Shown here: positions 33,897 through 57,382 of the stretch, piece after piece | How the letters are laid out: each line of letters begins with the position of its first letter | Position numbering within the stretch: the stretch's first letter is position 1 | Assembly: GCF_001050195.2 (NCBI RefSeq) | Contig: NZ_DF967967.1 | Coordinates: 1-64,000 of the forward strand | Length of the DNA: 64,000 bases | Direction: 5' to 3' | Source of the DNA: Anaerolinea thermolimosa | GTDB lineage: Bacteria > Chloroflexota > Anaerolineae > Anaerolineales > Anaerolineaceae | The notes under the pieces: model-generated | What the model saw: the letters and a program-made list of their open reading frames with translations, nothing else | Database searches by the model: none | What the model was told of the DNA's origin: nothing | Made by a program: the position numbers and the translations under genes

Positions 33897-33921
33897 ACAC
33901 GGCAGATGCTCTCTGCCGTGT
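33897..33921. terminator. hairpin between convergent genes
   Basis: ACACGGCAGA and TCTGCCGTGT pair over 10 bp around a 5-base loop between the HD-GYP gene and the transglycosylase-like gene. GTTATT follows on the plus strand and a T/A-rich stretch follows on the minus strand, so it could serve both genes. Confidence 0.65.
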
Positions 33922-33953
33922 GTTATTCTGCCCGGAGGTTCCCCGGAATTTTA

Positions 33954-35258
33954 CTACCGGGGGGTAGGGGTTGCCGTGGGTTGTTCGGGCGGCGGGGTGG
34001 GGTTAGGAGCTATTTCGGGCATATAAATGATCTCTTCAACATACCCCTTGGCGCTGGCGCAGTAATCGGGCAGGTTGGCGGCGACGAGTGCCCAGGTGAG
34101 GTCGTAGCCCTGGGTTTGCGCGGCGCGAATGGCTCCCGCCAGGCACCCCGAACCGGCATGATAATTCACCAGGGTAAAGAGCCACAGGTCTTCATAGGTG
34201 CTGATGCGGTTGGGCGGGCGTTTGGTCTCATTCAGGATGATCTGAGCCACCTGGCTGCAATTGGCCACCAGGTTTTCGGCAAAGACGCGCACACTGAACT
34301 CTGCCAGGAAGGGATCCACGCCCTCGGGGCAGGTGGGGCAGGTGGCGTTTACCATGCGCACCAGTGCGCCGGTGAGCATTTGCTGTTCCTGAACGGTCAG
34401 GTTGGTGTATCCTTTGCGGCAGGCTTCGGGGATGAGCACCTGTGGACAGAATTGGTTGTAAAAATTGGGGTTCCACATCAGGAGCACGTCGGCGCCGCTC
34501 ACCGTGAGCTGTCCGAACCCGGCTTCTTCCAGGGTGGTGAAGATGCCCGGCCAGAACTGGCTTTCGCGGCTGAAGATATTCTTCATCAACTGGGCCGGAA
34601 CACCGGTCTCTCTGGCGATATTAAGGATGACCTGGTTGAAGCGGTTTTGCCACTCGATGACCGCCGGATAGGCTTTTGCCAGACCACAGTTGTTGGCCAC
34701 CCACATGTTGTTGGCGGAGATTCCCCCGTTATCGCATTCTGAAGCGTCTACAGCTTTGTTGCGAATCAACATGGCCGCCAGGAAGTAGAGCGAGACTTTG
34801 GAATAAATTTGTTCCGGGCGGTCGGGAGTGGTGAGATAGTTGGGCAGGCGGGTGTAATCGGGCACCATTTCCCAGATGGCTGCACATCCCCCGCCATCCT
34901 GAAGGGGGCGGAAACTGCGGGCAAAACGGTAAATATACTCATTGGCCGGATCGATGGGAGCGCTGGCCGGTTGGAAAACCTGCAACGGGCTCTCAGCCAG
35001 GGCGGGCTGCACAGCGTTGGCGTCAGGGGCATGGCTGGCCGGGGCGGCCAGCGGGGCAACAGGAACTTCAGCTGCCTGAAGAGCCCCCATGATCACTGGC
35101 GTTGCAGGAAGGGGTGTGCGGTGTTCGCGTGGTGTGGCCAGCCCGGGTGCGGGCAGTTCTGCCTGAACAGCGGATGGCTGGCGCGATTGCCAGGCAATCC
35201 CGGCTCCGAGGAGTACGACAATCGCACTGAAGGCGGCGAAGCGTTTTAGAGCGCCCAA
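33954..35258 (-). CDS. secreted lytic-transglycosylase-like protein
   Basis: 434 residues. A hydrophobic N-terminal segment (about 8-24) without a lipobox acts as a signal peptide or anchor. A Pro/Ala-rich linker to about 120 follows, then a globular domain. The sequence IARETGVPAQLMKNIFSRES places a Glu in the position used by SLT-type lytic transglycosylases, and FGQLTVSGADVLL corresponds to the following substrate-groove motif. Many cysteines suggest disulfides outside the cell. The C terminus is a short Pro/Thr tail (TPPPEQPTATPTP). The likely role is cleavage of peptidoglycan, but sequence match to the family is distant. Confidence 0.65.
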   Translation of the reverse strand: MGALKRFAAFSAIVVLLGAGIAWQSRQPSAVQAELPAPGLATPREHRTPLPATPVIMGALQAAEVPVAPLAAPASHAPDANAVQPALAESPLQVFQPASAPIDPANEYIYRFARSFRPLQDGGGCAAIWEMVPDYTRLPNYLTTPDRPEQIYSKVSLYFLAAMLIRNKAVDASECDNGGISANNMWVANNCGLAKAYPAVIEWQNRFNQVILNIARETGVPAQLMKNIFSRESQFWPGIFTTLEEAGFGQLTVSGADVLLMWNPNFYNQFCPQVLIPEACRKGYTNLTVQEQQMLTGALVRMVNATCPTCPEGVDPFLAEFSVRVFAENLVANCSQVAQIILNETKRPPNRISTYEDLWLFTLVNYHAGSGCLAGAIRAAQTQGYDLTWALVAANLPDYCASAKGYVEEIIYMPEIAPNPTPPPEQPTATPTPR

Positions 35259-36746: not shown

Positions 36747-37422
36747 TTTTGTCGGGAAGCGCCTGGCTGGCCGCCTGCCCGACGTGCACCTGAACGAGCG
36801 CGGCCAGCAACAGGCCCTGGCGCTTGCGCAGGCACTTGCCGGGGCGCCTGTACGGGCCATTTACAGCAGTCCGCTGGAGCGTGCCCGCGAAACCGCCGCA
36901 CCGCTGGCAGAGATGATGGGGCTTGAAGTGCTCATCGAGCCCGGGCTGAATGAGATCGATGCGGGGCAGTGGCAGGGGCGGTTCCTTCGCCAGCTGCGCC
37001 GCCTCAAAGCCTGGAAAGCAGTGCAAAACCAGCCTGCGACCTTTCGCTTCCCCCAGGGAGAGACTTTTGCCGAGGCTCAGGCGCGCGCTGTCGAGGCGCT
37101 TCAGCGCATTGCGGAACGTCACCCCGATGAGCTGGTGGCCTGTTTCACTCATGCAGATGTCATTCGCCTGGTGACGGCCTATTTCCTTAACATGCCGCTG
37201 GATTCTTTCCAGCGTCTTGGGGCTGATACAGCCTCGATAACCGTGGTGCATCTCGGCAAAGATGGCCGGGTGGGGGTTCCGCGATTTAACCAGGTGGTGG
37301 GGTTTGTGTGGCTCGAAGAAAAGAAAAAGCCCGCCTCAGCAGGAAAGGCGGGCAGGCAACCCCGGCAGGGCTCTCCCTCCAATGGGAAGGAAAGCCCACC
37401 GGGCAAGAGCGCTACACCATGA
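36709..37422 (+). CDS. histidine phosphatase family protein
   Basis: 237 residues. The phosphohistidine motif [10 protein letters not shown] is at the N terminus, with the second Arg in SSPLERARETAAPL and the catalytic Glu/His pair in LNEIDAGQWQG and CFTHADVIR. The family includes phosphoglycerate mutases and many phosphatases; the substrate is unknown. It overlaps rarA by 38 bases, so expression is linked. The last 33 residues are a Lys/Pro/Gly-rich tail that is encoded by DNA which, on the other strand, forms the terminator of the protease gene (37318-37353). The tail is therefore probably not a conserved part of the fold. Confidence 0.85.
   Translation: MTTLILIRHGENDFVGKRLAGRLPDVHLNERGQQQALALAQALAGAPVRAIYSSPLERARETAAPLAEMMGLEVLIEPGLNEIDAGQWQGRFLRQLRRLKAWKAVQNQPATFRFPQGETFAEAQARAVEALQRIAERHPDELVACFTHADVIRLVTAYFLNMPLDSFQRLGADTASITVVHLGKDGRVGVPRFNQVVGFVWLEEKKKPASAGKAGRQPRQGSPSNGKESPPGKSATP
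37318..37353 (-). terminator. intrinsic terminator of the S2P-type protease gene
   Basis: On the minus strand GCCCGCC and GGCGGGC form a 7-bp GC stem around an 11-base loop and are followed by TTTTTCTTTT. It lies inside the coding sequence of the convergent histidine phosphatase gene. Confidence 0.8.
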
Positions 37423-38608
37423 TGAGTGGGACGGGGATGAACACCAGCAGGAATACGATCAGTGCCACAATGGCCAGGAGCTTCCGGGGTGTGTCCAGGG
37501 GGGTGATCTCGTCCAGGGGTTCGGCGTAGGCACGCCCGAAGAGGAAGATCAGCACAGCCCACAACCACCAGCCCGACCAGAAAAACCCCAGAGCAACCAG
37601 CAATACCAGCACCACCGGCAGAAGCCGTGCGGCGCGTTTGCGTCCGAGCAACACATAAAGCACGTGCCCGCCATCCAGCTGCCCTGCGGGGATGAGGTTA
37701 AGCGAAGTGATCAACATGCCACCCCAACCTGCCCAGGCCACCGGATGGATGGTGACATCAATCCCGCCGAAGGGGAAGGGCTGCCCGGTAAAGAAATATC
37801 TCAGCCAGTAAAGTAATACAGGGGTGTTGCCGTAATCGGCGGGGGCCGGGAGCCACTGGCCAAAACGCAGATACTTCAGGAAGAGGTAAAGCAGGGAGTT
37901 CCCTTCCATGGTGATTTGAGGGGTCGCGCCTGGCGATGCCGGCAGGCGGCTGAGGGTGGAGAGCGAAAGGCCGATCGTCAGCACCAGGATGGTCACCACC
38001 AGCCCGGCCAGCGGCCCGGCCAGGCCGATATCCAGGAGCACACGGCGGTTCTTGGGCTGTTCCTTCATATTGATGAACGCGCCAAAAGTTCCAAAAAGGC
38101 TGACAAAAGGCATGGGGATGAAGTAGGGCAGGCTGACCCGCACCCCGTGATAGCGCCCCACCAGAAAGTGCCCGAATTCGTGGGCCGTCATGATGGCCAG
38201 GAAGCTCACCGTGAAAGGCACAGCAGCCAGCAGAAGCCGGGGCAGGGTGGGCTGGGCGTTTTCAGGCAGGCCGGCAGGTGCGAAGAGAGCCCCTGAGATT
38301 AACACACTGATCAAGGTGGCGATGAAAAGAAATACATTGACGCGCGGATTCCCGGTCTGGGGGCGTTCTCGCTGGGGGACGATGAGCACGGCATGGCGGT
38401 CGCCGTCCCAGCGGAACAGTGGCATGAGGTGGTAGGGCTTGAGCAGATCGCTCAATTGATCATAAGCTGCGGCAGTATCTTCGTTGTAGAGGCGCCCGCG
38501 GTAACGCTGCAGGAAAGGATCCTTCTCTCCGCCGATGGTTTTATCTTCGATGCGGAGAACCCGTCCGACGAGCATATCAATGGAAAGTTCATCATAACCG
38601 ATATTCAT
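37412..38608 (-). CDS. M50 site-2-protease-family metalloprotease
   Basis: 398 residues from the ATG at 38608 (AAGGA eight bases before; a longer frame to 38833 runs over a spacer and lacks a site). Several membrane segments are visible. The zinc motif lies in IMTAHEFGHFLVGR, and the third ligand motif in NLIPAGQLDGGHVLYVLLG. A soluble N-terminal part (about 1-90) precedes the first membrane segment. Such proteases cut membrane proteins and release regulators, often in envelope stress. The substrate is not apparent. It has its own -10 (38645-38650), and its stop overlaps that of the histidine phosphatase gene by 11 bases. Confidence 0.87.
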   Translation of the reverse strand: MNIGYDELSIDMLVGRVLRIEDKTIGGEKDPFLQRYRGRLYNEDTAAAYDQLSDLLKPYHLMPLFRWDGDRHAVLIVPQRERPQTGNPRVNVFLFIATLISVLISGALFAPAGLPENAQPTLPRLLLAAVPFTVSFLAIMTAHEFGHFLVGRYHGVRVSLPYFIPMPFVSLFGTFGAFINMKEQPKNRRVLLDIGLAGPLAGLVVTILVLTIGLSLSTLSRLPASPGATPQITMEGNSLLYLFLKYLRFGQWLPAPADYGNTPVLLYWLRYFFTGQPFPFGGIDVTIHPVAWAGWGGMLITSLNLIPAGQLDGGHVLYVLLGRKRAARLLPVVLVLLVALGFFWSGWWLWAVLIFLFGRAYAEPLDEITPLDTPRKLLAIVALIVFLLVFIPVPLIMV

Positions 38609-38650: not shown

Positions 38651-38747
38651 ACGCTCTGGCGGGTGAATGAAGGGCACCGGTCGACCGGGAAACAGGGCCG
38701 GTGAGGAACCCGGAGAGCGTATCAGGCCATGAAGGTGCTGGAGCGAG

Positions 38748-38841
38748 CGGGAATGGATGGGAGTCGAACCCACCGCGGCCCGCAACGCGACCCGCCAACG
38801 GTTTTGAAGACCGCGAAGCCCACCGGGGCTCATCCATCCCC
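38748..38841 (-). tRNA. selC: selenocysteine tRNA (tRNA-Sec, anticodon UCA)
   Basis: A 94-base tRNA on the minus strand. The acceptor stem has 8 bp (GGGGATGG with CCATTCCC, one G-U), and the T stem has 5 bp, giving the 13-bp total of bacterial tRNA-Sec, with discriminator G. The D arm has a 6-bp stem (GAGCCC with GGGCTT) and a 4-base loop. The anticodon loop CTTCAAA has UCA, and the T loop is TTCGACT. A long GC-rich variable arm (GCGG...CCGC) separates them. These are exactly the features that set tRNA-Sec apart. UGA can therefore be decoded as selenocysteine in this cell, which supports the Rdx selenoprotein at 57131-57382. SelA, SelB and SelD are not in this window. Confidence 0.95.
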
Positions 38842-38847
38842 GGATTA

Positions 38848-38876
38848 AGCATACCTGATGGGTGCGAATACGTCAA
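38848..38876 (-). promoter_or_regulatory. promoter of selC, positioned to start at the first tRNA base
   Basis: On the minus strand TTGACG (38876-38871) and TATGCT (38853-38848) have a 17-base spacer. The -10 ends 6 bases before G1 of the tRNA, so transcription probably begins at the mature 5' end. Confidence 0.7.
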
Positions 38877-56147: not shown

Positions 56148-57134
56148 TCAGGGCAGGCCGATGGCGTCGCGGACTTCAGCCATGGTCTGCTCTGCGATGA
56201 CGCGTGCCCGGCGTTCACCATCGCGGAGCACGTCCAGAATGTCATCCGGGTTCTGTGCCAGGGCGGCGCGGCGCTCGCGGAAGGGAGCCAGATGAGCATT
56301 GAGGTTTTTAGCGAAGAGCTTTTTACAGTCCACACAGCCGATGCCTGCCCGTCGGCATTCGAGATTGATCATGGCCACTTCTTCCGGGCTGGAGAACACC
56401 TTGTGCATGCTGAAAACATTGCACACATCGGGGTTACCGGGGTCACTGCGGCGTTTGCGGGCCGGATCGGTAACCATGGTCATGACCACTTTTTCGGTTT
56501 CTTCGGGGGTCAGGGCAAGCTCGATATGGTTGTTCAGGCTCTTGCTCATCTTTTGCTGGCCGTCGGTGCCGATTACTTTGGGCACCTCGGTGAGTTTGAT
56601 ATCGGGTTCTTTGAGGACGCTGGTGTTGTAGCGGAAATTAAAAGATCGCACCGTTTCGCGGGCAAACTCGACGTGCGAAGCCTGATCGATCCCCACCGGC
56701 ACCAGGTCGGCTTTATAGAGGACGATGTCGGCGGTCATAAGCACAGGGTAACCTACCAGCCCCAGGTTGACGTTGTTCGGCTGCATGCGCACTTTTTCTT
56801 TAAAGGTGGGCAGATCGGTGAGCTTTCCCAGAGGCGTGACCATGGAGAGGATGGTGAACAGTTCCATTACCTGAGGGACATGGGACTGAATGAAGACGAT
56901 GGATTCTCGCGGGTCGATGCCAGCGGCCAGCCAGTCGAGAGCCATCTCGTAGGTGTTGTTCTTGATATCGCGCGTGGTTTCGAGGGTAGTAAGAGCATGA
57001 ACATCGACAATGCAGTAGATACAGTCGTATTCTTTTTGCAGAGCGACGTAGTTCTGGATGGCTCCCAGGTAGTTTCCCAGATGCTGGCGTCCGGTGGGGC
57101 GAGCCCCCGAAAAAACACGACCTTTTTTTGTCAT
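56148..57134 (-). CDS. trpS: tryptophanyl-tRNA synthetase
   Basis: 328 residues of a class I synthetase. GARPTGRQHLGNYLGAIQNY holds the HIGH-type motif and DGQQKMSKSLNNHI the KMSKS motif, both in the form seen in TrpRS. AAAGGGAAC precedes the ATG. The start codon overlaps the stop of the selenoprotein gene (ATGA), so the two are translationally coupled. Downstream, two short hairpins (56102-56123 and a GGGGG-AA-CCCCC block near 56130) stand before the aldo/keto reductase gene. Confidence 0.93.
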   Translation of the reverse strand: MTKKGRVFSGARPTGRQHLGNYLGAIQNYVALQKEYDCIYCIVDVHALTTLETTRDIKNNTYEMALDWLAAGIDPRESIVFIQSHVPQVMELFTILSMVTPLGKLTDLPTFKEKVRMQPNNVNLGLVGYPVLMTADIVLYKADLVPVGIDQASHVEFARETVRSFNFRYNTSVLKEPDIKLTEVPKVIGTDGQQKMSKSLNNHIELALTPEETEKVVMTMVTDPARKRRSDPGNPDVCNVFSMHKVFSSPEEVAMINLECRRAGIGCVDCKKLFAKNLNAHLAPFRERRAALAQNPDDILDVLRDGERRARVIAEQTMAEVRDAIGLP

Positions 57135-57382
57135 AAGTTCCCTTTCTTAAGCAAGGCTTTGAATAACTCAACCACTTCGCCCGGGTTGGCATGACGCCCG
57201 GTTTTTAACTTGGAATAAAGGAGCTGGCCGTTCACCACCACTTCGAACCGGCCACCATCAGACGGAATGAGCGTGAGCCGGGCGATCTCGGGCTCGAATG
57301 CTTTCAGCAACTCTGCTGCCAGACCGGCAGCGCGTTCGGTGTAGTGTCAGACCGTGCAATAAGTAATTTCAATGGACCACAT
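57131..57382 (-). CDS. selenoprotein of the SelW/Rdx family (CxxU), read through an in-frame UGA
   Basis: 84 codons from ATG 57382 to TGA 57133-57131, with a UGA as codon 12 (57349-57347). It starts MWSIEITYCTV and has Cys9-x-x-Sec12, the CxxU redox motif of Rdx proteins. After the UGA it continues HYTERAAGLAAELL, and later GGRFEVVVNGQLLYSK and NPGEVVELFKALL, which match the family fold over its full length. GGAGG precedes the ATG. The family has a thioredoxin-like fold and a likely redox role, exact function unknown. A SECIS-type hairpin follows the UGA (57315-57331), and tRNA-Sec is encoded at 38748-38841. The alternative, a true stop, would leave an 11-residue peptide and is unlikely. Confidence 0.9.
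57315..57331 (-). promoter_or_regulatory. bacterial SECIS-type hairpin
   Basis: On the minus strand GCTGCC and GGCAGC form a 6-bp stem closing a GGTCT loop, the loop recognised by SelB in bacterial SECIS elements such as that of E. coli fdhF. The loop begins 21 bases after the UGA, within the usual range. Confidence 0.85.

Follow-up and report, generated by a model that had tools for sequence, protein, structure and literature searches.

A promoter placed for a predicted start at the first base of tRNA-Sec in Anaerolinea thermolimosa

Results

The window analyzed here, a 64-kb stretch of DNA from Anaerolinea thermolimosa, a member of the Anaerolineales in the Chloroflexota (positions 1 to 64,000 of the 118,868-bp contig NZ_DF967967.1), contains a single tRNA gene, which ARAGORN reports as tRNA-SeC(tca) at 38747-38841 on the minus strand. 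The Rfam tRNA-Sec model RF01852 matches 38749-38841 on that strand over its full length with 75.4 bits (E 1.2e-13; gathering score 47 bits) and is the only Rfam family above its gathering score in the whole window, the high-scoring minus-strand hit that the first-pass annotation had expected of a covariance-model search. Together with pair support in 43 homologues, these matches place selC, encoding tRNA-Sec(UCA), at 38748-38841 (minus strand), in agreement with the 94-base tRNA first proposed there once the discriminator G is counted. The structural description given at that stage was likewise correct in every part, as seen in the sequence and the ARAGORN drawing: the gene shares with bacterial tRNA-Sec (RF01852) its length, an 8-bp acceptor and 5-bp T stem forming a 13-bp stack, a 6-bp D stem with a 4-nt loop, a long variable arm, the anticodon UCA (38805-38807, minus strand; ARAGORN position 35) and G73, and differs from it in having no encoded CCA. 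Across 43 order-level tRNA-Sec genes neither the T-stem pairs nor the discriminator G varies, and the acceptor pairs are kept in 42-43, with G-C, A-U and G-U swapping at positions 4 and 5; the 8-bp acceptor, the 6-bp D stem and the UCA are conserved in relatives. The locus is thus a genuine, ordinary selC gene for a known kind of tRNA, present in one copy in the 4.17-Mb genome.

An M50 metalloprotease-like gene (37412-38608, minus strand; Pfam PF02163 and synteny) lies downstream of selC in the same orientation. It follows selC in this way in about 30 of the 43 order-level loci, at a spacing of nearly always 17-236 nt (one outlier, 997), and was not found in the selC flanks examined outside the order. 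Cotranscription of the two genes is plausible in relatives with short gaps; it is not claimed for the window, where the gap holds a separate TATAAT.

Farther along the window, an 83-amino-acid Rdx (SelW-like) selenoprotein gene occupies 57131-57382 on the minus strand, its stop overlapping the start of trpS. Its product exceeds the Pfam cut-off for PF10262 and begins MWSIEITYCTVU, the U of the CTVU motif being the single internal TGA (57347-57349, minus strand), which in translation is read as Sec. Rdx occurs in 36 of 61 related genomes, and 35 of these 36 genes carry one internal TGA, the sole exception (G020) reading CVPC; in G020 selC and selB are retained and the only Rdx match is this cysteine form. 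Among the 11 of 61 genomes in which selC and selB are both missing, Rdx is present in one (G038, assembled in 640 contigs), and this copy carries the UGA even though neither selB nor selC was found there.

Comparison across homologues places a SECIS-like hairpin (GCUGCC-GGUCU-GGCAGC) just after the Rdx UGA, at 57315-57331 (minus strand). In 34 distinct UGA-bearing sequences it consists of a six-pair stem and a 5-nt apical region (GGUCU, AGUUU or AGUCU) whose start lies 24 nt downstream of the U of the UGA codon. Covariation (U-A, C-G, G-C) is seen at the pair whose two members are both third codon positions; this pair is formed in 29/34 sequences against 22.3 by shuffling, and 0 of 2,000 shuffles did as well. 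Shifting the stem out of register lowers the number of pairs from 177 to at most 130. Folded as a single sequence, the hairpin of the window does no better than its shuffles (z 0.08), so it is the comparative result that carries the argument. Rdx is thereby supported as a UGA-encoded selenoprotein gene with a conserved SECIS-like hairpin, resembling the SelW-like family of bacterial selenoproteins (PMC1794560) in its small Rdx-family protein, CxxU motif and hairpin directly after the UGA, and differing from it in nothing notable. The proposal that the tRNA-Sec favors this reading of Rdx is strengthened by the CxxUGA, by the UGA in 35/36 of the relatives' genes and by the covarying hairpin. Nothing can be made of the two genes lying in one window, which the first-pass annotation had pointed out: they are 18.5 kb apart, which rules out an operon, and in relatives they are usually distant or on different contigs. 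A second selenoprotein candidate at 33906-35249, with one in-frame TGA, was rejected, as neither side of the TGA has a Pfam family and a long open reading frame (33954-35258) runs on the opposite strand.

Outside the window, the genome encodes selA (551 bits), selB (319) and selD (350), each above its curated cut-off, on its largest contig, which is not that of selC, and far from one another. The selD gene has an in-frame UGA of its own, reading SSCAGU, and SelD of this genome is probably itself a selenoprotein. What the Sec-decoding trait requires is therefore present: selA, selB and selD, genes with in-frame UGA (Rdx and SelD), and a SECIS hairpin after the UGA.

Within the order-level set selC was found in 43 of 61 genomes, and in 226 of 301 Chloroflexota genomes sampled, a share far higher than the 21.5% that a 2006 survey gave for the Sec-decoding trait among bacterial genomes (PMC1794560). 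Six genomes with selB and a UGA-containing Rdx (G026, G028, G037, G043, G049 and G050) seemed at first to be missing selC. Searching their DNA revealed a contig end within the gene in G028 and G043 and a run of N interrupting it in G037, so that an interrupted or unusual tRNA-Sec gene was dismissed in all three as an assembly artifact; selC was not found in G026, G049 and G050. With three assemblies broken inside the gene, selC is undercounted in draft genomes. One genome (G055) has two tRNA-Sec and two selB genes, with about 4 kb between selC and selB in one of the pairs, and could contain a duplicate system or be a mixed assembly.

Upstream of selC we recognized, from the sequence and from promoter comparison, a putative sigma-70-type promoter with a -35 box TTGACG (38871-38876, minus strand) and, 17 nt from it, a -10 box TATGCT (38848-38853, minus strand) that ends 6 nt before G1. 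With the usual sigma-70 distance of about 7 nt between -10 box and start site, transcription is predicted to begin at 38841, which is G1 itself; the selC promoter is thus spaced for initiation at the tRNA's own +1. In E. coli K-12, by contrast, the best box of selC lies 31 nt from the tRNA. In an order-level scan that applied one scoring scheme to all genes, with approximate E. coli sigma-70 frequencies, 31 of 40 strong selC promoters lay 6-7 nt before G1, against 0 of 36 promoters of the other tRNAs of the A. thermolimosa genome (Fisher p 2e-13, an optimistic value given that the genomes are related). These other tRNAs have a median gap of 12 nt, and in those with strong promoters most boxes are 9-14 nt away. 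The contrast persists when the scoring matrix is dropped, a TATNNT standing at 6-7 nt in 31 of 43 selC genes but in none of the 47 others, and shuffled upstream sequences reach this placement in 1.9% of cases. The boxes themselves also differ, mostly TATGCT or TATCCT at selC and mostly TATAAT or TAAAAT at the other tRNAs.

By lineage, 30 of the 31 genomes from the window's family have the 6-7 nt gap (no promoter at 6-7 nt was found by the scan in one member, G016), as do all 10 genomes sampled from a second family. Gaps of 12-30 nt precede selC in other families of the order, and the spacing is also different in much of the phylum. Within the window's family the gap measures 7 nt, not 6, in 18/31 genomes. 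Immediately upstream of G1, all 31 order-level selC genes with the 6-7 nt gap have a pyrimidine (18 T, 13 C), which fits initiation at a purine.

Discussion

The analysis supports two readings of different reach, one of what the genome can decode and one of how its tRNA-Sec may be made. It is close to certain that the genome has a tRNA-Sec and a complete Sec-decoding system. The first-pass annotation had taken selC by itself to show that the cell can decode UGA as selenocysteine; a tRNA alone is no proof of this, and the conclusion stands with the presence of selA, selB, selD and the UGA-containing genes. Gene, partner genes, UGA codons and Rdx hairpin are all there in the DNA, and the chemistry that would join them is supplied by the known bacterial pathway: the tRNA-Sec would be charged with serine, SelA would convert the Ser-tRNA using selenophosphate from SelD, and SelB would carry the Sec-tRNA to those UGA codons that precede a SECIS hairpin, the ones in Rdx and SelD at the least. 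As for the tRNA being a UGA suppressor or a tRNA-Ser-like pseudo-tRNA with no role in selenocysteine, tRNA-Ser genes too match the tRNA-Sec model, if weakly, and those below-cut-off matches of the genome that were examined by ARAGORN were tRNA-Ser and tRNA-Leu. Yet none of the remaining matches exceeds 46.2 bits, which is below the cut-off, against 75.4 bits for selC, the 8-bp acceptor, 6-bp D stem and UCA are kept in relatives, and selA, selB and selD are all in the genome, leaving this explanation scarcely credible. Hardly better placed is a recent horizontal transfer of selC with Rdx as a selenium-use island, which we regard as very improbable: the two genes do share one 119-kb contig in A. 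thermolimosa, and they are about 17 kb apart in G001, whereas selA, selB and selD sit at distant places on another contig, and the occurrence of selC in 43/61 genomes, with the same M50 neighbor in about 30/43 loci, points to vertical descent.

Regarding biogenesis, we think it somewhat probable, judging from promoter placement, that transcription starts at G1, in which case the tRNA-Sec would be made with no 5' leader and would need no RNase P cut; a start one or two bases off would leave a leader of 1-2 nt. Bacterial start sites do vary by a base or two, and an alternative that we hold to be less probable, and worth serious weight, is that the tRNA-Sec is real and is transcribed with a very short leader, which RNase P cuts off, the placement of the -10 box being a habit of the lineage with no effect on processing. 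The 7-nt gap in 18 of the 31 family genomes fits such a leader, as do the mostly 9-14 nt gaps of the genome's other strong-promoter tRNAs, which thus need RNase P. What speaks for initiation at G1 instead is the constancy of the 6-7 nt gap together with the invariant pyrimidine before G1, a combination that sets selC apart from the other tRNAs.

Leaderless tRNAs have been described elsewhere. The eukaryotic tRNA[Ser]Sec is transcribed without a 5' leader (PMC6627462), starting at the first base of the tRNA as is predicted here from sequence alone, although it does so with RNA polymerase III, a TATA box, a PSE and a DSE in place of a sigma-70-type promoter. In Nanoarchaeum equitans, 5'-leaderless tRNAs compensate for the general absence of RNase P (PMC10941002); there, too, promoters are set to start at the tRNA, whereas in A. 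thermolimosa this would concern selC only, the other tRNAs having leader-sized gaps. No report of a leaderless bacterial tRNA-Sec was found in the literature searched, mostly papers available without subscription, which is weak evidence of novelty. We lean, by a modest degree, toward the wider proposal that tRNA-Sec, and no other tRNA of Anaerolineaceae-like bacteria, is begun at its first base, avoids the RNase P cut and may retain its 5' triphosphate, an independent bacterial arrival at eukaryotic-type biogenesis, perhaps as the 8-bp acceptor is an awkward RNase P substrate. In E. coli, the 8-bp acceptor of tRNA-Sec is ascribed to an abnormal RNase P cut, and such a cut would be a reason to avoid the enzyme.

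For the genome, the tRNA-Sec fixes how UGA is to be read, and gene callers for which UGA is always a stop will truncate Rdx and SelD. The leaderless start, if true, would be a bacterial parallel to eukaryotic tRNA-Sec and would point to the long acceptor stem itself as favoring avoidance of RNase P.
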